A stretch of DNA of 64,000 nt from NCBI GenBank assembly GCA_016195985.1, contig JACPYP010000020.1, positions 310,001-374,000 on the forward strand, in the 5' to 3' direction. A program made the translations under genes and the position numbers. This document shows positions 1 to 10,100 of this stretch, in pieces. The stretch is from Acidobacteriota bacterium. Lineage in GTDB: Bacteria > Acidobacteriota > Holophagae > Holophagales > Holophagaceae. The stretch's first letter is position 1. Each line of letters begins with the position of its first letter. The notes below the pieces were generated by a model. The model did no database searches and was not told where the DNA came from. It saw only the letters and a list, made by a program, of their open reading frames with translations.

Positions 1-1
1 G

Positions 2-232
2 TTGGCGGACTACGAAGCCAAGGGCATCATCAGCGGCGGCATGCGGCCCAAGCTCACGGCGGTCAAGGCCGCCCTCGCGGCCGGCGTGCCCAGCGCTCAC
101 CTGGTGAGCGGCCTGGCGCCCGACGCCCTGCTGGCCGAGATCTTCACCAATGAGGGCAGCGGCACCATGCTCGTCCCCGGGGCGCTCGTGCCCGGGACCG
201 TTTCGGGACTCGCGTCCGGGGTCGCCGGATGA
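2..232 (+). CDS. argB: Acetylglutamate kinase, C-terminal end (partial)
   Basis: ArgB phosphorylates N-acetylglutamate, the second step of arginine synthesis, in the cytoplasm. Only the last 76 residues are present; the gene is cut by the window edge. They carry the C-terminal family motifs GGMRPKL (kinase nucleotide-side loop) and FTNEGSGTML. The TGA stop overlaps the ATG of the next gene (ATGA), so the two are translationally coupled. The leftmost codon is not a real start. Identity is secure from the motifs and the arginine context. Confidence 0.9.
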   Translation: MADYEAKGIISGGMRPKLTAVKAALAAGVPSAHLVSGLAPDALLAEIFTNEGSGTMLVPGALVPGTVSGLASGVAG

Positions 233-1308
233 GCCCCGCGGAACTCCTCACCCTGCTGGTGGGCACCCCCAGCGTCTCCGGCGAGGAAGGCCCCATCGCC
301 GACCTGCTGCAGGGTCTCCTCGCCGGCAGAGGCTTCGACGTGAAACGGCAGGGGCACAACCTCTGGTTCTCCTTCGGCGCCCCGGGCGGTTCCCGCCTGC
401 TGCTCAACTCCCACCTGGACACGGTGCCCCCCTGCGCGGGCTGGGAGGGGGATCCCTTCACGCCCGTCTGGAACGGCTCCCGCCTTCAGGGCCTGGGCTC
501 CAACGACGCCAAGGGCTGTGTGAGCGCCATGCTGCTCGCGGCCTTCGAGCTGTCCAAGCTGAAGCTGGACGGCGAGGTGGTGGTGGCCCTCAGTGCCGAA
601 GAGGAAACCGGGGGCAAGGGCATCGCCACCATCCTCGACCAGCTCGGCCCCTTCGATGGCGCCGTGGTAGGCGAACCCACCGGCTTGCGCATCTGCGCGG
701 CCCAGCGCGGCATGCTCCTGCTGAAGTGCACCGCCCGCGGCACCAGCGGGCATGTGGCCAACGCCCAGATGCTGGGGGCCGAGAACGCCATCCACAAGGC
801 CGCCCGGGACATTTCCAAAATCGCGGCGCTGGAGTTCCCCGCGCACCCCCTCCTGGGTTCCCAGAAGGCCCAGGTGACCCAGATCCAGGGCGGCCTGCGG
901 CGGAACCAGGTGCCCGATGCCTGCGAGTTCTTCATCGACCTGCGCACCAGCCCCGACCAGGACCACGACGACCTCGCCGCCTCCTTCCAGCGGCAGCTGG
1001 AAAGCGAAGTGGCCATCCACTCCAAGCGCTACCTGCCCAAGGGGACCGATCCCAGCCATCCCATCGTCCGCGCCGCGCTCCAAGCCGCGGGCAAGGCCGG
1101 CCCCGTGGGCTCCGGCACCACCTCCGACTGGGCCTTCCTGGGCGGCATCCCGGCGGTCAAGGCCGGGCCCGGCGACACCTTCCGCAGCCACAGCCCCAAC
1201 GAGTACCTGACCCTGCCCGAGCTCGAAGCCGGCGCCGCCTTCTACGCGAACCTGGCCACCACCTTCTTCAAGCTGCAGGTGCCCAAGCAAGAGGCAGGTG
1301 CCCGATGA
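229..1308 (+). CDS. M20 deacetylase of the arginine operon (N-acetylornithine or N-acetylcitrulline deacetylase)
   Basis: A 359-residue zinc hydrolase of the M20 ArgE/DapE family that should remove the acyl group from an arginine intermediate. Metal and catalytic residues are visible: H62 and D64 in SHLDTVPP, D93 in GSNDAKG, E124/E125 in SAEEETGG, E149 in GEPTG and H321 in SHSPNEY. It overlaps argB and argH by 4 nt each. In Bacteroidetes and Xanthomonas, M20 enzymes in this position deacylate acylated citrulline rather than ornithine. The argH and argG subtypes here fit that scheme, but the diagnostic carbamoyltransferase would lie outside the window. Enzyme class is firm; the exact substrate is inferred. 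Confidence 0.85.
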   Translation: MSPAELLTLLVGTPSVSGEEGPIADLLQGLLAGRGFDVKRQGHNLWFSFGAPGGSRLLLNSHLDTVPPCAGWEGDPFTPVWNGSRLQGLGSNDAKGCVSAMLLAAFELSKLKLDGEVVVALSAEEETGGKGIATILDQLGPFDGAVVGEPTGLRICAAQRGMLLLKCTARGTSGHVANAQMLGAENAIHKAARDISKIAALEFPAHPLLGSQKAQVTQIQGGLRRNQVPDACEFFIDLRTSPDQDHDDLAASFQRQLESEVAIHSKRYLPKGTDPSHPIVRAALQAAGKAGPVGSGTTSDWAFLGGIPAVKAGPGDTFRSHSPNEYLTLPELEAGAAFYANLATTFFKLQVPKQEAGAR

Positions 1309-2663
1309 AGCCAGACGGAACGACCCTCTGGGCCAAAGACCTGCCGCTGGATGTGGCCATCCACCGTTTCACGGTGGGCGATGATCCGGACACGGACCTG
1401 GCCCTGCTTCCCTGGGATGCCCTGGGCAGCGCCGCCCACGCAAAGATGTTGGCCGCCACGGGGCTGCTGGAAGCCTCAGACGCCGCAGCCCTGGTGCGGG
1501 GCCTCAAGCGCATCGCCAACCTTGCCCGGCAGAACGCCTTCCCCATTCCGCCCCACCTGGAGGACGGCCACACCGCCATCGAGGCGGATCTCACCCGCAG
1601 CCTCGGCCCCGTGGGTCAGCGCATCCACCTGGCCCGCTCGCGCAACGACCAGGTGATCCTCGCCTTCCGCCTCTACCTGCGGGATGCTTTGCTGCGGCTC
1701 GGCCTGCGGGTATCCGACCTGGCGGCGGCCTTCCTCGCCTTCGCCAAGGCGCACCAGCACGTGGCCCTTCCCGGCTACACCCACCTGCGGCGGGCCATGC
1801 CCAGCACCTTCGGCATGTGGGCGGCGGCCTTCGCCGAAGGCCTGCTGGAGGAACTGGAAGCCCTGCAGTCCGTGTACCAGCGCCTGGACCGCTGCCCGCT
1901 GGGCTCTGCCGCCGGTTTCGGCGTGCCCCTGCCCATCGACCGGGAACTCACGGCGAGGCTGCTGGGCTTCTCCAGGGTGCAGCGCAGCCCCATCGACGTT
2001 CAGAACAGCCGGGGCCGCCATGAGACCGCCCTGCTGCAGTGGGCCGCCTCCACCGGCGGCGTGCTGGAGAAGTTCCTGTGGGACGTGTCTTTCTACAGCA
2101 CCGAGGAATTCGGTTTCCTCAAGCTGCCGGACGCCTTCACCACAGGATCCAGCATCATGCCGCAGAAGAAGAACCCCGACGTGGTCGAGCTGGCCCGGGG
2201 CCGCTGCCGCGAACTGCGGGGCACCGCGGGCCTGGTGGACCAGATCGGCTCGGGCCTGCCCTCCAGCTACCACCGGGACCTCCAGCTGCTGAAGCGCCCC
2301 GTGATCACCGGTCTCCGCCAGGCGGACGAACTCTTCGGCGTGCTGGTGCGGCTCATCCCCGCCCTGAAAGTGAACGCGGAAACCACCGCCGCCGCCAGCA
2401 CGGACGAACTCTATGCCGCCCACCAGGCCTACGTCTACGTGCAGGGCGGCCTCCCCTTCCGCGAGGCCTACCGCAAAGTGGCGCACCAGATCCAGGAGGG
2501 CACCTTCGCCCCCGACCGCGCCGCCCTCACGGCCACGCACCTGGGCGGCGCCGGGAACCTGGGCCTGGACGACCTGGCGGCGGATCTCACGCAGGCCCGC
2601 ACCTGGATCGAAGGCAAGCGCGAAATCCACGCCGACGCTGAATCCGCCCTCTGGACCGTCTGA
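1305..2663 (+). CDS. argH: Argininosuccinate lyase
   Basis: A 452-residue lyase that splits argininosuccinate into arginine and fumarate, the last step of arginine synthesis. The fumarase/aspartase-superfamily signature GSSIMPQKKNP is at residues 281-291, and the substrate-binding stretch HLARSRNDQV lies in the N-terminal third. The ATG at 1305 was chosen because it overlaps the previous stop (ATGA) and gives the family's normal length; the frame stays open further upstream without homology. The N-terminus (TVGDDPDTDLALLPWDALGS) resembles Bacteroidetes ArgH more than the E. coli form. Next gene: argG after 9 nt. Confidence 0.96.
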   Translation: MKPDGTTLWAKDLPLDVAIHRFTVGDDPDTDLALLPWDALGSAAHAKMLAATGLLEASDAAALVRGLKRIANLARQNAFPIPPHLEDGHTAIEADLTRSLGPVGQRIHLARSRNDQVILAFRLYLRDALLRLGLRVSDLAAAFLAFAKAHQHVALPGYTHLRRAMPSTFGMWAAAFAEGLLEELEALQSVYQRLDRCPLGSAAGFGVPLPIDRELTARLLGFSRVQRSPIDVQNSRGRHETALLQWAASTGGVLEKFLWDVSFYSTEEFGFLKLPDAFTTGSSIMPQKKNPDVVELARGRCRELRGTAGLVDQIGSGLPSSYHRDLQLLKRPVITGLRQADELFGVLVRLIPALKVNAETTAAASTDELYAAHQAYVYVQGGLPFREAYRKVAHQIQEGTFAPDRAALTATHLGGAGNLGLDDLAADLTQARTWIEGKREIHADAESALWTV

Positions 2664-2672
2664 AAGGAACCC

Positions 2673-3860
2673 ATGAACAAGCTCGCCGTCCTCGCCTTCT
2701 CCGGCGGTCTCGATACCTCCTTCTGTGTGCTCTACCTCAAGGAGCAGGGCTACGATGTGGCCACGGTCACGGTCAACACCGGCGGTTTCTCGCCCGAGGA
2801 ACTGGCCCGCATCGAGGCCGCCTCGCCCAAGCTCGGGGCCATCAGCCACACCACGGTGGATGCCCGGGCGGGGCTCTTCGACGGCTACCTCCGCTACCTG
2901 ATCTACGGCAACGTGCTGCGCGGCCAGATGTACCCGCTGTCCGTATCCGCCGAGCGCGTCTGCCAGGCCCGGGCCGTGGCCGAGCTGGCCAAGGAGATGA
3001 AGGCCGCCGCCATCGCCCACGGTTCCACCGGCGCGGGCAATGATCAGATCCGCTTCGACGTGGCCTTCCGCGCCCTGGCCCCGGAGTTGGAGATCCTCAC
3101 GCCCATCCGCGACCTGGGCCTCTCCCGGGCCGAGGAAATGGCCTACTGCGCCGAGCGCGGCCATGCCTTCCCCGAGAAGACCAAGGACTACTCCATCAAC
3201 GAGGGCATGTGGGGCACCAGCGTGGGCGGCCGCGAAACCCTGGACGCCTGGACCACCCTGCCCGAGGGCGCCTTTCCGGGCGGGGCCATCCCCTCTCTGG
3301 CACCCAAGACGCTGATCATCAGCTATGACGAGGGCGTGCCCGTGGCCCTGGACGGCATGGCCATGAATCCAGTCACGCTCATCGCCCAGCTCAATGCCGT
3401 GGGCAAGGTCTACGGCATCGGCCGCGGCGTGCACCTGGGCGACACCATCCTGGGCATCAAGGGCCGGGTGGGTTTCGAGGCCCCTGCCGCGCATCTGCTC
3501 ATCGGCGCCCACCGGGAGCTGGAGAAACTGGTGCTCAGCGGCAAGCAGCTCTTCTGGAAGGAATCCCTGGGCAACCTCTACGGGTCGCTCCTGCACGAGG
3601 GGCACTTCTTCGATCCCCTGGTCCGCGACCTGGAGGCCTTCCTGCATTCCAGCCAGGACCGCGTGTGCGGCGAAACGCGCCTCACCCTGCATCCCCGCGC
3701 CTTCGTGGTGGAGGGTGTGCAGTCGCCCTACTCGCTGATGGATCCGCGCATCGCCACCTACGGCGAAGCCAACAAGCTCTGGACCGGCGCCGAAGCCGCG
3801 GGCTTCGCCAAGGTCTTTGGCGTGCAGCAGACTCTGACTCTCAAAGCAAAAAGCAACTGA
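2673..3860 (+). CDS. argG: Argininosuccinate synthase
   Basis: A 395-residue ATP-dependent ligase joining citrulline and aspartate. The PP-loop AFSGGLDTS is at residues 8-16, and the HGSTGAGNDQIRFD block is at 116-129. The ATG at 2673 has an AAAGGAA ribosome binding site. The motifs VNTGGFSPEEL, LIYGNVLRGQMYPLSVSAER and the HGSTGAGNDQ block match the Bacteroidetes-type ArgG, which usually travels with an acyl-citrulline pathway. It lies 9 nt after argH and 15 nt before the P-loop gene, so it is in the same operon. Confidence 0.96.
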   Translation: MNKLAVLAFSGGLDTSFCVLYLKEQGYDVATVTVNTGGFSPEELARIEAASPKLGAISHTTVDARAGLFDGYLRYLIYGNVLRGQMYPLSVSAERVCQARAVAELAKEMKAAAIAHGSTGAGNDQIRFDVAFRALAPELEILTPIRDLGLSRAEEMAYCAERGHAFPEKTKDYSINEGMWGTSVGGRETLDAWTTLPEGAFPGGAIPSLAPKTLIISYDEGVPVALDGMAMNPVTLIAQLNAVGKVYGIGRGVHLGDTILGIKGRVGFEAPAAHLLIGAHRELEKLVLSGKQLFWKESLGNLYGSLLHEGHFFDPLVRDLEAFLHSSQDRVCGETRLTLHPRAFVVEGVQSPYSLMDPRIATYGEANKLWTGAEAAGFAKVFGVQQTLTLKAKSN

Positions 3861-3875: not shown

Positions 3876-4928
3876 ATGAGAATTCACGTCGACAAGCTCG
3901 CCTCCGTCACCCGCAACCTGCGGCTGGGCCGCACGCTCACTCTCGGCAGCGAGATCCTGCTTGAAGAGGGCTCCGTCATCGCCTGCAAGGTGCGGGGCGA
4001 AAAGACCACGTACAACCAGCTGGAGGATCCCCACGGGCGCATGAGCACCCTGCACGACGGCGACATCCTCGTGGGCGCCCTGGGCCACCGCAACGCCCTG
4101 CAGGGCTACGAGGGCGTCATGCCCACGTCGTTGAAACCCGGCGATACCGTGAACCTGCTGAACATGGGCGGCGTCATCGGACAGTGCCTGTCGCACAACC
4201 CCGATGTGGGCAAGCCCTTCGAGCTGGAGGTGCTGGGCCAGGTGCTGGTGTTTCCCGAATTCCAGTCCCGCGCCGGCCAACCCGCCCACATCCGCATGGG
4301 CGCCCTCAAGGGCACGAGCCTTTCGGCCCACTGCCCCGTGGTTTACGTGGCGGGCACCTGCATGAACGCAGGCAAGACCGCCGCCGCTTGCGCGACCATC
4401 CGCCAGCTGAGCCGGGCCGGCTATCGCGTGGGCGCCTGCAAGCTCACGGGCGTCTCCCTCATGCGCGACGCTCTCGCCATGCGGGATTACGGCGCCGAAG
4501 TGGCCCTGGATTTCACGGATGCGGGCATCACCTGCACCGATGCCCGAACCGCGGCGGGCGTGTCGCGCATCATCTTTTCAGAACTGGCCTCCCATGGCGT
4601 GGATGTCATCGTGGCCGAAACCGGCGACGGCATCATGGGCGAGTATGGCGTGCAGGCCATCCTGCAGGACGCCGAACTCATGGCCCTGAGCGGCGCCTTC
4701 GTCGTGTGCGCCAACGATCCCGTGGGGGCCGCCGGCGCCGTCCACAACCTGAGCGCCGCCTACGGCATCAAGACGGACCTGGTGGCGGGGCCCGCCACGG
4801 ACAACCGCGTGGGAGAGCGCTTCGTGGCCACCCTGGGCCTGCCCGCCCGCAACGCTCGCGCCGATGCCGAGGCCCTCGGCACGTTCTTGCTCAACCTCCT
4901 CGAACCAAGGCTCGCCGCCAAGGCCTAA
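3876..4928 (+). CDS. Uncharacterised P-loop NTPase in the arginine operon
   Basis: A 350-residue protein I cannot assign to a known function. Residues 1-150 look beta-rich with no recognised motif. Residues 155-300 form a P-loop domain with Walker A GTCMNAGKT (160-168), a following helix, a conserved-looking CKLTGVSLMRD stretch and a Walker B-like VIVAETGDG (E248, D251). The layout recalls the DUF1611 and dethiobiotin-synthetase type of P-loop enzymes, which activate a carboxylate or amine with ATP, but the N-terminal half does not look like the DUF1611 Rossmann domain. It sits 15 nt after argG and ahead of argC, so a role in or next to arginine synthesis is a reasonable inference only. Confidence 0.75.
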   Translation: MRIHVDKLASVTRNLRLGRTLTLGSEILLEEGSVIACKVRGEKTTYNQLEDPHGRMSTLHDGDILVGALGHRNALQGYEGVMPTSLKPGDTVNLLNMGGVIGQCLSHNPDVGKPFELEVLGQVLVFPEFQSRAGQPAHIRMGALKGTSLSAHCPVVYVAGTCMNAGKTAAACATIRQLSRAGYRVGACKLTGVSLMRDALAMRDYGAEVALDFTDAGITCTDARTAAGVSRIIFSELASHGVDVIVAETGDGIMGEYGVQAILQDAELMALSGAFVVCANDPVGAAGAVHNLSAAYGIKTDLVAGPATDNRVGERFVATLGLPARNARADAEALGTFLLNLLEPRLAAKA

Positions 4929-4939
4929 AAGATCTTGGT

Positions 4940-5018
4940 CCACAGATTCCACGGATGTCACAGATTCAAAAGCTTGGTTTCCGTTTTCAATCTCTGTGTG
5001 GATCTGTGAAATCTGTGG
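4940..5018. repeat. Imperfect inverted repeat of the 'ATCTGTGG' intergenic type
   Basis: The 115-nt gap before argC holds a left arm rich in CCACAGATT and CACAGATT units (from 4940) and a right arm with TCTGTG, ATCTGTGAA and ATCTGTGG units (to 5018), so the two arms can pair imperfectly. The 12-mer TGAAATCTGTGG at 5007-5018 recurs at 5045-5056 across the argC start. Short 'ACAGAT...ATCTGTGG' repeats of this kind occur between genes in several bacterial phyla; their role is unknown. Confidence 0.6.
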
Positions 5019-5043
5019 TCAAGCATTTCTTCTGTGAGTTCCT

Positions 5044-6042
5044 ATGAAATCTGTGGATGTCTTGATTCTCGGCGCGTCGGGCTACGGCGGGGGGGAGCTT
5101 CTGCGGTGGCTTTCCAGCCACCCGGCGGTGAACTCCATCCGCGGCACGGCCCGCAGCCACGCGGGAAAGCCCTTCCACGCCCAGCACCCGAACCTGCGCG
5201 GCCTGGTCGAGGGCGTTTTCGAGGCAGCCCCGGACTGGGGGGCCCTGGGCCGGAGCGAAGCCCCCGTCGTTTTTTCCGCGCTGCCCCACGGCGAGCTGGG
5301 CAAGCTCTGGCCCGAATTCGAGGCGGCCTGGAAGGCTCACGGCCTGGCGGAGAAGCTCACGATCATCGATCTGTCGGCGGACTTCCGGCTGGATCCCGCC
5401 TGGGTGTACGGCTTGGTGGACTGGAAGCCCGAGCGCATGAGGGGCGCCCGGCGCATTGCCAATCCCGGCTGCTTCGCCACGGCGCTGCAACTGGCGCTGC
5501 TGCCCCTGGCGGAATGGAAGCCCGCCTTCCTGGCCGTCACCGCGGCCACGGGCTCCTCAGGCTCCGGCGCAGCCCCTTCGGACACCACCCACCACCCCGC
5601 CCGGGCCAACGATTTCCGCGCCTACAAGATGCTCAGCCACCAGCATGAGGCCGAAGTGCTGCGCACCCTCGCCGCCGCCGGCTGGGAAGCGCCGCTCAGC
5701 TTCGTGCCGCAGAGCGCGCCCATGGTGCGGGGCATCTTCGCCACACTCCAATTCCCGATTCCAGCAGGAATTGGAGCAGAGGCTCTGCAAGCCCATTTTG
5801 AAGCCTTCTACCGTGATCGTTTCTTCGTGCGCATCGTCGAAGGTTCGCCCCGGGTGGCGGCCACCAGCGGCAGCGCCTTCGCCGACATCTCCGTGGCCGC
5901 CAAAGGTTCCCACGGCGCGGTCATGGTGGCTCTGGACAACCTGGGCAAGGGCATGGCGGCCCAGGCCGTGCAGAACCTGAACCTGGCCCTGGGCCTGCCC
6001 GAATGGACGGGCCTGAAGACCGCCGGAGGATACCCCGCGTAA
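5044..6042 (+). CDS. argC: N-acetyl-gamma-glutamyl-phosphate reductase
   Basis: A 332-residue NADPH-dependent reductase for the third step of arginine synthesis. The nucleotide-binding motif GASGYGG is at residues 10-16 and the catalytic cysteine is C143 in NPGCFATA. The pattern HQHEAEV in the middle is also typical. The ATG at 5044 gives a normal N-terminus but has no clear Shine-Dalgarno sequence. Its first codons copy a unit of the repeat just upstream. The 115-nt gap is the largest in the arg cluster, so argC may have its own expression control. Confidence 0.95.
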   Translation: MKSVDVLILGASGYGGGELLRWLSSHPAVNSIRGTARSHAGKPFHAQHPNLRGLVEGVFEAAPDWGALGRSEAPVVFSALPHGELGKLWPEFEAAWKAHGLAEKLTIIDLSADFRLDPAWVYGLVDWKPERMRGARRIANPGCFATALQLALLPLAEWKPAFLAVTAATGSSGSGAAPSDTTHHPARANDFRAYKMLSHQHEAEVLRTLAAAGWEAPLSFVPQSAPMVRGIFATLQFPIPAGIGAEALQAHFEAFYRDRFFVRIVEGSPRVAATSGSAFADISVAAKGSHGAVMVALDNLGKGMAAQAVQNLNLALGLPEWTGLKTAGGYPA

Positions 6043-6121: not shown

Positions 6122-7498
6122 ATGAATCCTTCCCTTCTCACCCGTGAGGCCCTGGGCCAGTTCGCCGCAGAGAGCCGCGCGGCCTTCGAGGCGGAACTGA
6201 AAACCCTGGTGGAGATTCCCTCCATCAGCGCGGACCCGGCCCGGCAGGGCGATGTGCGGCGCTGCGCCGAAGCGGCCCGCGCGCTGTTCGAGCGGCACGG
6301 CGGCAAGGCCGAGATTCTGGAAACCAGCGGCAACCCCCTGGTGCACGGCTGGTTCGGGGAGGACCCCAGCCTGCCCACCATCACGGTCTACAACCACATG
6401 GACGTGCAGCCCGCCAATGAGCCCGAATGGACGGCGGATCCCTTCGCGTTCGTGGTGGACGGTGACACCTACCGCGGCCGCGGCAGCACGGACGACAAGG
6501 GCCCGGCCGTGACGGCCTTCTTCGGCGCCCTCGCGGCCCGCCGCGCCGGCGTGCCCCTGAACATCGCTTTCCTCTGGGAACTGGAAGAAGAGATCGGCAG
6601 CCCCAGCTTCGAAGGCGGCCTCGCCCGGCACAAGGACCGCCTCAGGACTGATGCCATCGTGGTGAGCGATACGGTGTGGATCACCCGCGGCAAGCCCAGC
6701 ACGCCCGCGGGCCTGCGGGGCCTCAAGGGCTTCCGCCTCACGCTGGAGACCGCCGACCACGACCTGCACAGCGGCGTGGTGGGGGGCGCGGCGCGCAATC
6801 CCCTCGCCGAGCTCATCAAGGTGGTGGCCACCATGATGGACGGCGAAACCGGCAAGGTGAAGATCCCCGGCTTCTACGACGACGTGGTGAAACCTTCCAA
6901 GAAGGAACTGGAGGAGTGGGCCAATGCGGGCTTCAGCGTGGAGACCTTCAAGAAGGACCACATGATCACCGGCATGCGCACGGAGGATCCCGTCAAGGTC
7001 ATGAAGCGCGTATGGGGGCGGCCCACCATGGAGGTGCATGGCGTGGTCGGCGGCTACACGGGCCCCGGCATCAAGAGCGCCGTGCCGCCCCGGGCCGAAG
7101 TGAAGATGAGCTGCCGCCTGGTGCCGGACATGGACGAGCACAAGACCATCCAGCTCATCCGCGACTTCGTCCAGGAGAACTTCCCCGACGTGCAGTTCCA
7201 CGAGGAGCACGGCCTCGCCCCCTTCAAGGGCCACGTCACCGGTCCCTATGCCGAAGCCGTCAAGGACGCCTACAAGTTCGCGTTCGATGCGCCCTGCTCC
7301 TTCACCCGCGAAGGCGGCAGCATCGGCGCCGTGAAGACTATGGAAGATGTGCTCGGCTGCGAGGTCTTCTTCCTGGGCCTCAGCCTGCCCAGCCACGGCT
7401 ACCACGCTCCCAACGAGAACTACGACTGGGAGCAGGCCTCCGGCGGCATCGCCGCCTTCGCCCACTACTTCCAGACCGTGAGCGGCATCAGGAACTGA
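6122..7498 (+). CDS. M20 family dipeptidase (CNDP-like)
   Basis: A 458-residue zinc peptidase of the M20 carnosinase/CNDP2-type branch, probably a cytoplasmic dipeptidase. Metal ligands are recognisable: H92 and D94 in YNHMDVQP, D125 in GRGSTDDKGP, the E155-E157 cluster in ELEEEIG, and H at the C-terminal SHGYHAPNE. There is no signal peptide. The ribosome binding site CGGAG precedes the ATG by a few bases. It follows argC by 79 nt and may be read through from it, but it is not an arginine-pathway enzyme by its sequence. The substrate cannot be told from sequence. Confidence 0.85.
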   Translation: MNPSLLTREALGQFAAESRAAFEAELKTLVEIPSISADPARQGDVRRCAEAARALFERHGGKAEILETSGNPLVHGWFGEDPSLPTITVYNHMDVQPANEPEWTADPFAFVVDGDTYRGRGSTDDKGPAVTAFFGALAARRAGVPLNIAFLWELEEEIGSPSFEGGLARHKDRLRTDAIVVSDTVWITRGKPSTPAGLRGLKGFRLTLETADHDLHSGVVGGAARNPLAELIKVVATMMDGETGKVKIPGFYDDVVKPSKKELEEWANAGFSVETFKKDHMITGMRTEDPVKVMKRVWGRPTMEVHGVVGGYTGPGIKSAVPPRAEVKMSCRLVPDMDEHKTIQLIRDFVQENFPDVQFHEEHGLAPFKGHVTGPYAEAVKDAYKFAFDAPCSFTREGGSIGAVKTMEDVLGCEVFFLGLSLPSHGYHAPNENYDWEQASGGIAAFAHYFQTVSGIRN

Positions 7499-7562: not shown

Positions 7563-10100
7563 TTACTTCTTCAACAGGGCCCTGATCTCGGCCAGGTCCC
7601 GCTTCAGGGCGACGTTCTCCTCCTGCAGCGCCTTCAGCTGCCGGGCCAGTTCCTGGGTCGCGCTGATGTTCAGCGTGCCCAGCGCCTCGTAGTCCACCAC
7701 CCGGAAATCCTTCACCTGGGTGCCGTAGACGAAGACCTTTTCCTCGGCGCCGGGGTAGTTGGCCACCACGAAATGGGTGGCGTCCAGAATCTCGACCACT
7801 GGAAGGTCCTGGGACCCCTTCGCCCCGATCAAACGGAGGGTTTCACCTCCCTGCAGTCCGTGGGGCTCCGCCAGGCCCACCGTCAGCCGCCCGTTGGCGT
7901 AGCCAACCGAGACACTCAACCGGTAGATGTTCGGCAGGAAATCCACCGTCTGCCTGACGGCGATGGGATAGACCGCCTCCACCTCCTGGGCGATGACCTT
8001 CTTGTGAACGGCATCTCCGTGCTGGATCCGGTCCTTGTAGCGATAGTCCGTGATCTGAAGCTGCCGCAACTTCTCCAGATCGGCGGCCCCATCTGAGCGG
8101 CCCACCACTTCTTTCACGCGAGCATCGGAGGTAGCCATGAACACCAGGGCACGGATGTTCTGGCTGGCCGACACGGAGAACGGGTCAGTGCCACTCGTGT
8201 TCGAGGCCCCGACGGCGTCATACCCAAATCCCGTCCAAGCGGCGTTCACTCCCCCCGTTCCAGTGATGGTCAAACTGCCGCTGGTGGTGTTGGGACCCGA
8301 GGTGTTCCACCCGCCCCCTCCCGCCGAAGCCCAGCTGACGGTGCCGCTCCCATCGGTGGTGAGGAACAGGCCGCCGTTGCCACCCTGGCTGGGCAGCAAC
8401 GCGTTCAGCGCGGTGCTGGCGCTGGTTGCGCCCGTACCGCCATTTCCCACCGCCAAGGCCGTGCCGGACCAGTTGCCGTTGTTGACGGCGTTGAGCGTGG
8501 CCAGGCTGCCCAGGCCGCTCACCCGGGCCACCGGTACCGTTCCGGCCGAGATCGTGCCCAGGGTCGTGAGGTTGGCGGAACCCGCCCAGGTGGACAGGGC
8601 CGTGTTCTCCACGTTGCCCAGGCCCACCTGGGATTTGGTCAGTCCCGTGAGGCCCGAGCCGTTGCCGGTTGGGGCCAAGAAGTCCGTGCCCGCCACGGGA
8701 ATGCCCGTCAGGCTGGCATAGGTCCCGGTGGTGGCCACGCTGGCCAGGCCGCTCACCCGGGCCGCCGGCACCGTTCCCGCCGAGATGGTGCCCAAGGTCG
8801 TGAGGTTGGTGGAGCCCGCCCAGGTGGAGAGGGCCGTGTTTTCCACGTTGCCCAGGCCCAGGTTGGTGCGGGCATTGGCGGCCGTGGCGGCGCCGGTGCC
8901 TCCGTTGGCGAGGGCCAGCGTGCCCGTGGCCTCTGTGCCGAGGTTGACCGCCCCGCCATTGCTGGCGGCGGTCAGGCGGCCCTGCTGGTCCACCGTGAGG
9001 TTGGCCCGGGTGTAGGCCCCTGGCGTCACCGCCGTGTTGGCCAGGGAGATGGTGCCGCTGCTGGTGATGGGGCCGCCGGTGAGGCCCGTGCCCGTGCCCA
9101 CGCTGGTCACCACGGCGGATCCGGTGTTCAGGCCGAACAGGGACCAGACGCCGCCGTCGAATTGATAGAGGCCCGCGGTCCCGTCGGTCTGGTACACCAT
9201 CAGGCCGATGGCCGGCGAGGCGATGGCCGCGCGCTGGGCCGCGGTCATGCGGGGCGGCAGGAAACCCTTGGTGGTGCTGGTGAGATCCAACAGGGCGCTG
9301 GCCTGGGGTGGGTTGATGCCCACGCCCAGGGATCCCGTGGTGAAGACCGCGTTGGCGCCGTTCAGCGTGAAGGGACTCGCCCCTGCGGGACCGGTGGCCC
9401 CCGTGGCGCCTGTGGCTCCCGTGGCGCCCGTGAGCCCCGTGAGGCCCTGGGGCCCCTGAGGTCCTTGAGGTCCCGGAGGGCCCTGGGGGCCCACCGTGCC
9501 GGTGCCGGCGACGGTGCCGGCCACCCACTTCGTGCCGTTGAACATCAGCGCCTGGCCATTGGCCGGGGCGGTGGTGGTCAGATCCAGGGGGCGGCCCTGC
9601 AGGTTCGCCACCAGGGTCTGGCCCTGCGTGCCGCTCAGATCGCCGCCGAAGGCGCCGGTCACCTCCCAGGCGCTGCGGGCCTGGAAGGCGGGCACGATGT
9701 CCACGTCCGGCGCCAGGGCCTGGCTGCCCACCACCACGTGCAGCTTCAGGCCGGCCCTGCCCAGCAGCGTCAGGGGCAGGGGAGTCATGCCGGTGGTGCC
9801 CAGCACCACGGAGTAGAGGCCATCGGTCACCGTGAGGGTCTGGGGACCTGAAGTCCAGTGTTCGGCGCCGGCGCTGTCGAGCACGCTGAACGTGAAGCTG
9901 CGCACGCCGGTGACCGCCACCGCGCCTTCCAGCAGCCGTCCCTGGTAGGTAAGGGTGGGCAGGGGCGCCGGGTCCGCAGCGAGGGCCGGAGCGGGGGCCA
10001 GTACGGGGACCAGGGCGCGGGCCTGGACCCCGGGCTGGGCGGCGCAGGCGATGAGGGCGGCGAGGGTGGGCGTGAGGAGGGGACGTCGCATGGAGTTCAC
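7563..10100 (-). CDS. Secreted surface fibre protein with collagen-like repeats and C-terminal S74 chaperone domain
   Basis: An 845-residue protein. Residues 1-42 hold a likely signal peptide. Residues 204-240 are a collagen-like Gly-X-Y run (GPQGPPGPQGPQ then GATGATG). Residues 330-630 are Gly/Thr/Ser/Asn-rich, tail-fibre-like sequence with a near-duplicate unit (LGNVENTALSTWAGS). From S658 the C-terminus matches the peptidase S74 'intramolecular chaperone' domain: SDARVKE, a Leu-rich helix, YRYKDR, IAQEVEAVYP. It ends in a coiled coil (about 818-845). S74 domains trimerise fibres and often cut themselves off before the serine of the SD motif, here S658. An approximately 80-residue segment (about 720-798) interrupts the S74 fold. 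It is the last gene of a three-gene surface cluster. Confidence 0.8.
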   Translation of the reverse strand: MNSMRRPLLTPTLAALIACAAQPGVQARALVPVLAPAPALAADPAPLPTLTYQGRLLEGAVAVTGVRSFTFSVLDSAGAEHWTSGPQTLTVTDGLYSVVLGTTGMTPLPLTLLGRAGLKLHVVVGSQALAPDVDIVPAFQARSAWEVTGAFGGDLSGTQGQTLVANLQGRPLDLTTTAPANGQALMFNGTKWVAGTVAGTGTVGPQGPPGPQGPQGPQGLTGLTGATGATGATGATGPAGASPFTLNGANAVFTTGSLGVGINPPQASALLDLTSTTKGFLPPRMTAAQRAAIASPAIGLMVYQTDGTAGLYQFDGGVWSLFGLNTGSAVVTSVGTGTGLTGGPITSSGTISLANTAVTPGAYTRANLTVDQQGRLTAASNGGAVNLGTEATGTLALANGGTGAATAANARTNLGLGNVENTALSTWAGSTNLTTLGTISAGTVPAARVSGLASVATTGTYASLTGIPVAGTDFLAPTGNGSGLTGLTKSQVGLGNVENTALSTWAGSANLTTLGTISAGTVPVARVSGLGSLATLNAVNNGNWSGTALAVGNGGTGATSASTALNALLPSQGGNGGLFLTTDGSGTVSWASAGGGGWNTSGPNTTSGSLTITGTGGVNAAWTGFGYDAVGASNTSGTDPFSVSASQNIRALVFMATSDARVKEVVGRSDGAADLEKLRQLQITDYRYKDRIQHGDAVHKKVIAQEVEAVYPIAVRQTVDFLPNIYRLSVSVGYANGRLTVGLAEPHGLQGGETLRLIGAKGSQDLPVVEILDATHFVVANYPGAEEKVFVYGTQVKDFRVVDYEALGTLNISATQELARQLKALQEENVALKRDLAEIRALLKK
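8511..8625 (-). repeat. Direct repeat within the fibre gene, copy 1
   Basis: About 115 bp that are nearly identical to 8745-8859. It encodes the segment running from LGNVENTALSTWAG to ARVSGL. The tandem-like duplication suggests lengthening of the fibre by internal recombination. Confidence 0.85.
8745..8859 (-). repeat. Direct repeat within the fibre gene, copy 2
   Basis: Second copy of the 115-bp unit at 8511-8625, in the same frame, 119 bp away. Most differences are single bases and keep the protein nearly unchanged. Confidence 0.85.

Follow-up and report, generated by a model that had tools for sequence, protein, structure and literature searches.

Arginine synthesis can be started by several means, and ArgA, ArgJ, the short NAGS and ArgH(A) have all been described to fill its first step (PMC1382215). 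In Bacteroides, the intermediates of arginine synthesis are succinylated, and BT3761, numbered beside the argininosuccinate synthase candidate BT3760, is the probable N-succinylglutamate synthase (PMC7311316). The transcarbamylases of the succinyl-type pathway (SOTCase) are distinguished from AOTCase by A/S/P/V/Q, P and V/I/E at the positions 92, 185 and 302 of the X. campestris enzyme, respectively (PMC4581275). A further enzyme acting on glutamate is encoded by dgcN, the key gene of a D-glutamate racemisation pathway (PMC12363236). DgcN N-acylates glutamate, which is the reaction type that we propose below for a P-loop protein of an acidobacterial arginine cluster. Its chemistry presumably uses acetyl-CoA, and BT3761 is an enzyme that we take to be small and of the GNAT type. 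In the succinyl-type pathway the acyl group is removed after carbamoylation, leaving no ArgJ-type recycling; therefore, a synthase that acylates glutamate de novo is required.

The P-loop gene lies in a stretch of 64,000 nucleotides (the window) from a Geothrix-type acidobacterium, where the arginine genes follow the order argD, argF', argB, argE, argH, argG, P-loop gene and argC, with argR beside the cluster on the opposite strand, upstream of argD (Table 1). The genes argR, argD, argF' and most of argB are located upstream of the window, and their sequence was fetched separately. The products of argH, argG, argC and argB score over the NCBIfam cut-offs and that of argF' over the N-acetylornithine carbamoyltransferase cut-off (NF003384), whereas argD and argE were assigned by best match, with scores below the equivalog cut-offs. 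The cluster accounts for the whole route from N-acylglutamate to arginine, and the N-acylglutamate synthase alone is unnamed. The Bacteroides pathway of BT3761 is alike in having the same missing step and a succinyl-ornithine transcarbamylase (PMC7311316). As expected of an N-acylglutamate synthase, the P-loop gene is accompanied by the genes for the remaining steps that use N-acylated intermediates. We consider it likely that this gene specifies the missing first enzyme, a non-GNAT N-acylglutamate synthase that would follow an acyl-CoA or an ATP route. The P-loop protein is unrelated to the GNAT-type BT3761, and no sequence relation was found between it and ArgA, ArgJ, the short NAGS or ArgH(A).

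Table 1. Features of the P-loop gene and the neighbouring arginine genes, in window positions
Feature	Position	Strand	Basis
argB 3' end (N-acylglutamate kinase)	1..232	+	remainder of gene upstream of window
argE-like M20 deacylase	229..1308	+	profile match
argH, argininosuccinate lyase	1302..2663	+	TIGR00838 294.8 bits, cut-off 279.5
argG, argininosuccinate synthase	2673..3860	+	TIGR00032 303.5 bits, cut-off 268.2
P-loop protein gene, candidate N-acyl(succinyl)glutamate synthase	3876..4928	+	ORF, arg neighbourhood of homologues
N-terminal beta-rich domain, residues 1-150	3876..4325	+	AlphaFold2 and invariant residues
C-terminal P-loop domain (DUF1611-, BioD-, CTP-synthase-like fold), residues 151-350	4326..4928	+	AlphaFold2 and fold matches
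Walker A GTCMNAGKT, residues 160-168	4353..4379	+	sequence; invariant G160, M163, G166, K167, T168
Conserved ACKLTGV motif, residues 187-193	4434..4454	+	invariant K189, G192, V193
Walker-B-like ETGDGIMG motif, residues 248-255	4617..4640	+	G250, G255, Y257 specific to arg type
argC, N-acyl-gamma-glutamyl-phosphate reductase	5044..6042	+	TIGR01850 284.3 bits, cut-off 233.6

The P-loop gene starts with ATG, encodes a protein of 350 residues and follows the argG stop codon after a gap of 15 nt, exactly as in the original prediction, and it is separated from argC by 115 nt. In this latter spacer (4929-5043), a CACAGATT-type repeat occurs in inverted orientations; elsewhere in the window it has only one short match, at 5048. 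Just 3' of argC is an M20 dipeptidase-like gene (6122-7498, + strand), which is probably separate from the pathway. It is followed on the opposite strand (7563-10100) by a gene for an 845-residue protein that includes a short collagen-like segment (GPQGPQG/GATGAT) and the C-terminus of which resembles by eye a tail-fibre-type chaperone (S74-like) domain.

Both nucleotide-binding motifs predicted at the outset, an intact Walker A and a Walker-B-like motif, are present, the latter as the stretch DVIVAETGDG (residues 243-252). Among 27 divergent homologues, the residues G160, M163, G166, K167, T168, K189, G192, D198, E248, G250, D251 and G252 of the P-loop domain are invariant, so the Walker motifs are not a matter of chance. 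The N-terminal domain also has invariant residues in the same set, namely G32, Y46, E50, R72, G98 and G99. Homologues of the same genus, including those of Geothrix fermentans and G. campi, are 86-96% identical to the P-loop protein.

The structure of the whole protein was predicted by AlphaFold2 with a pLDDT of 92.1 and a pTM of 0.90 (38 sequences), and that of residues 1-150 alone with a pLDDT of 91.5. Both models support a beta-rich N-terminal domain separate from the P-loop domain, in line with what had been read from the sequence. Structural comparison showed that the P-loop domain matches DUF1611 (2g0t, Z 16.8; 2obn, Z 14.9), CTP synthase (Z 16.2), BioD (Z 15.6) and DgcN (7xrj, Z 14.1), with Z differences below 1 counting as ties. 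As BioD and CTP synthase score alike, these matches indicate a shared fold, not membership of DUF1611. For the N-terminal domain, Foldseek gave no match in the PDB with E < 0.4, and the best VIA match, to a LexA C-domain (Z 3.1), is unconvincing. Thus, the predicted N-terminal beta domain is without a clear PDB match, which does not by itself establish a new fold.

Sequence profiles place the P-loop protein outside the known families, none of which matches above its cut-off; the strong match to a known enzyme family that would have counted against the original prediction was thus not observed. Against PF07755 (DUF1611 C-terminal) it scores 15.9 bits versus a cut-off of 25, over positions 4-49 of 201 in the profile, and similarly weak matches occur in 23 of the 27 homologues (best E 5.7e-4). 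PF17396 (DUF1611_N, Rossmann-like) has no match in the P-loop protein or the 27 homologues, compared to 76.1 bits on a true DUF1611 protein, and hhalign against DUF1611 proper gives a probability of 17.8%. Since the profile similarity is weak and the DUF1611 N-terminal domain is replaced by a different one, we did not file the P-loop protein as DUF1611. True DUF1611 genes coexist with the P-loop gene as separate copies in four genomes. One true DUF1611 gene (locus L198, 2121-3215) adjoins an MR_MLE/epimerase-like gene, an arrangement resembling dgcN-dgcA. Membership of MobB/CobQ/BioD was also rejected, the scores being far below the cut-offs (TIGR00347 for BioD, 13.9 versus 83.3 bits); the profile matches to BioD and MobB are short, and searches of PDB sequences returned short Walker A matches only. 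Compared to BioD and the synthetase domain of CTP synthase, with which it shares the fold and motif layout, the P-loop protein has an extra N-terminal beta domain, an arginine context and short, low-scoring sequence matches.

The gene itself, its conserved place, the completeness of the pathway beyond step 1, the exclusion of ArgJ and the transcarbamylase signature are observed, and the fold of the P-loop domain is predicted; what the protein catalyzes, its preference for succinyl and its acyl donor are inferred. In the proposed enzyme, the P-loop domain would recognise the diphosphate moiety of the acyl donor, preferably succinyl-CoA, or of ATP, and the N-terminal beta domain would contribute to the binding of glutamate and/or the acyl group. 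The N-acylglutamate formed would pass through ArgB, ArgC and ArgD to the succinyl-ornithine-type transcarbamylase ArgF', after which the M20 deacylase ArgE, ArgG and ArgH would complete the pathway. The donor, acyl-CoA or ATP plus free acid, is the weakest point of this explanation. Acyl-CoA is suggested, somewhat tentatively, by analogy with DgcN, but the P-loop domain is no closer to DgcN than to dethiobiotin synthetase and CTP synthase. A mechanistic variant with the same product would be an ATP-dependent N-acylglutamate synthetase, in which ATP activates succinate (or acetate) and an amide is formed, as in BioD and CTP synthase. The intact Walker A and the invariant residues K189, which follows the second strand, and E248, in a layout like that of nucleotide-using relatives, are consistent with such an enzyme, as are the short BioD and MobB profile matches and the Z-scores of CTP synthase and BioD close to that of 2g0t. 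Nevertheless, DgcN, with a similar P-loop fold and acting on glutamate, is titled N-acetyltransferase in its PDB entry (7xrj), and we regard the ATP-dependent variant as rather unlikely.

The gene keeps its place in the arginine cluster across several phyla, an observation that the original prediction would have taken to suggest a new step or regulator. In 32 of 33 Acidobacteriota arg loci (homologues of at least 30% identity in arg clusters), argC lies directly downstream, some of these argC matches having come via a LysY query of the same family, and the remaining locus is a contig end. A set of 80 loci taken from GTDB genomes gives the same picture: argC is next to the P-loop gene in 77, and the exceptions are two contig ends and one locus (L169) without argC downstream. 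Many of the argG/P-loop/argC junctions overlap or have gaps of a few nucleotides. A total of 468 relatives of the P-loop protein were found, and those of the arg type occur, among other soil and sediment bacteria, in Holophagaceae, Myxococcus, Corallococcus, Pyxidicoccus and Hyalangium, as well as in gammaproteobacterial MAGs and one armatimonadete MAG. Rather than being scattered, the outcome that the original prediction had set against itself, homologues of the arg type stay in arg clusters. Two records call for separate mention: a contig in a record titled Comamonas sp. KCTC 72670 (L160) carries a Myxococcus-type arg cluster and may be mislabelled or mixed, and a small contig in a genome of another family (L049, G154:C221:1-564), with a gene 86% identical to that of Geothrix, is likely contamination.

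In several families the cluster is reduced to P-loop gene, argC, argD and argB, i.e., steps 2, 3 and 4 plus the P-loop gene. At the five loci with this minimal cluster the surrounding genes are unrelated, with members of the amidase and tetrapyrrole-methylase families and genes that look like gltX and pdxJ by eye. The composition of the clusters bears on whether the P-loop protein might catalyze some other cluster-linked reaction, such as acyl removal or transfer, or be part of a LysW-like carrier system. Such a role would accord with the gammaproteobacterial clusters of the GTDB loci survey, in which argE was undetected; however, argE is beside the P-loop gene in most clusters, and the minimal clusters pair the P-loop gene with argB, argC and argD, not with the late genes, which makes this reading very improbable. 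In the Geothrix cluster, no LysW-like gene was noticed.

The distribution of the gene was compared with that of the other step-1 enzymes. Among 297 Acidobacteriota genomes, the arg-type gene is present in 68, ArgJ in 111 and both in none (Fisher p 1e-16, a statistic that ignores relatedness); likewise, among 146 Myxococcota genomes, the numbers are 50, 56 and none, these tallies counting genomes and not independent events. Only the arg type shows this exclusion, since ArgJ is present in some genomes that have a distant homologue only (five Acidobacteriota and one Myxococcota). ArgA (TIGR01890) was not found over the cut-off in any of 22 genomes with the P-loop gene, where the strong matches are ArgB kinases. 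Short GNAT-type NAGS (NF005921 and NF005840) were not found over the cut-offs in any of 27 genomes, 20 with and seven without the P-loop gene. NF005840 is the more informative of the two tests, because it reached the cut-off in three control genomes and NF005921 in none. As these searches covered ArgJ, ArgA and the short NAGS, GNAT synthases of other kinds, such as the Bacteroides BT3761 type (PMC7311316), may be encoded elsewhere in the genomes with the P-loop gene, which counts against the proposed role.

The original prediction had left a choice between a new step and a regulator. As a regulator, chaperone or scaffold, the P-loop protein might be a nucleotide-binding sensor of arginine or glutamate that tunes the pathway, N-acylglutamate being made by an unrecognised GNAT. 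GNAT proteins are indeed encoded in genomes with the P-loop gene, but their matches are far below the NAGS cut-offs, and the strict exclusion of ArgJ in two phyla fits a step-1 enzyme. Moreover, the new step fits the conserved position better, because argR is already beside the cluster, only step 1 is unnamed, and the gene is kept in minimal clusters together with just argC, argD and argB. The regulatory role therefore appears distinctly unlikely, although it could also accommodate six genomes of one family that have the cluster without the P-loop gene.

These six genomes, which also count against an N-acylglutamate synthase, keep the succinyl-type argC-argD-argF'-argB, and neither ArgJ nor the P-loop gene was detected in them, whereas other members of their family have the P-loop gene. 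As the cluster is kept in the absence of both, another solution to step 1 must exist there. Two candidates were tried and rejected. One GNAT gene (L229) at first tracked the genomes lacking the P-loop gene, yet was found in genomes with it too, and what lies between argB and argF' in two of the six loci looks by eye like reading frames for small secreted proteins and not for a synthase. The surroundings of argG in these genomes contain argH and unrelated genes, with the exception of a RimI-like GNAT near the cluster of one genome (G242).

The nature of the acyl group is indicated by the transcarbamylase of the cluster. Geothrix ArgF' has A/P/E at the positions 92/185/302 and thus bears the SOTCase signature. 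Most of the readable cluster transcarbamylases have A/P/E or P/P/E; in a small number, position 92 is T or I, or position 302 is K, and Glu at 92 is found in none. Because the cluster transcarbamylase carries the succinyl-ornithine signature, the acyl group of the pathway is probably succinyl. The synthase proposed here would differ from known ones in fold, its most likely product being N-succinyl-L-glutamate, made on a P-loop domain instead of a GNAT or ArgJ fold. In its fullest form the proposal is evenly poised: an undescribed two-domain class of P-loop N-succinyl-L-glutamate synthases, possibly ATP-driven and having an N-terminal fold that lacks a clear counterpart in the PDB, might start arginine synthesis in many Acidobacteriota and Myxococcota, replacing ArgA, ArgJ and GNAT enzymes.

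In addition, full-length relatives with 28-33% identity exist outside arg clusters, at ten loci, a point against the proposed function. Their homology extends across both domains (hhalign probability 100, E 1e-64), and their neighbours encode ABC transporters, YheC/D-like ATP-grasp proteins and M28 (TFR-dimer) or M20 peptidases. Residues common to both groups include G32, R72, A74, the P-loop, K189, G192, D198, F213, E248 and G305, whereas Y46, L75, G77, C162, V193, G250, G255 and Y257 are among those found in the arg type only; Y46, C162, G250, G255 and Y257 are lacking in the non-arg relatives.

Proteins of this P-loop type are not known to have been linked to N-acylglutamate synthesis before. 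If the proposed function is true, P-loop proteins would join the enzymes that N-acylate L-glutamate, and the arg type would offer an entry point to the function of the full-length relatives outside arg clusters. Succinylated arginine synthesis would then reach beyond Bacteroidetes, and the gap at step 1 would be filled for large parts of two phyla, cultured myxobacteria included.
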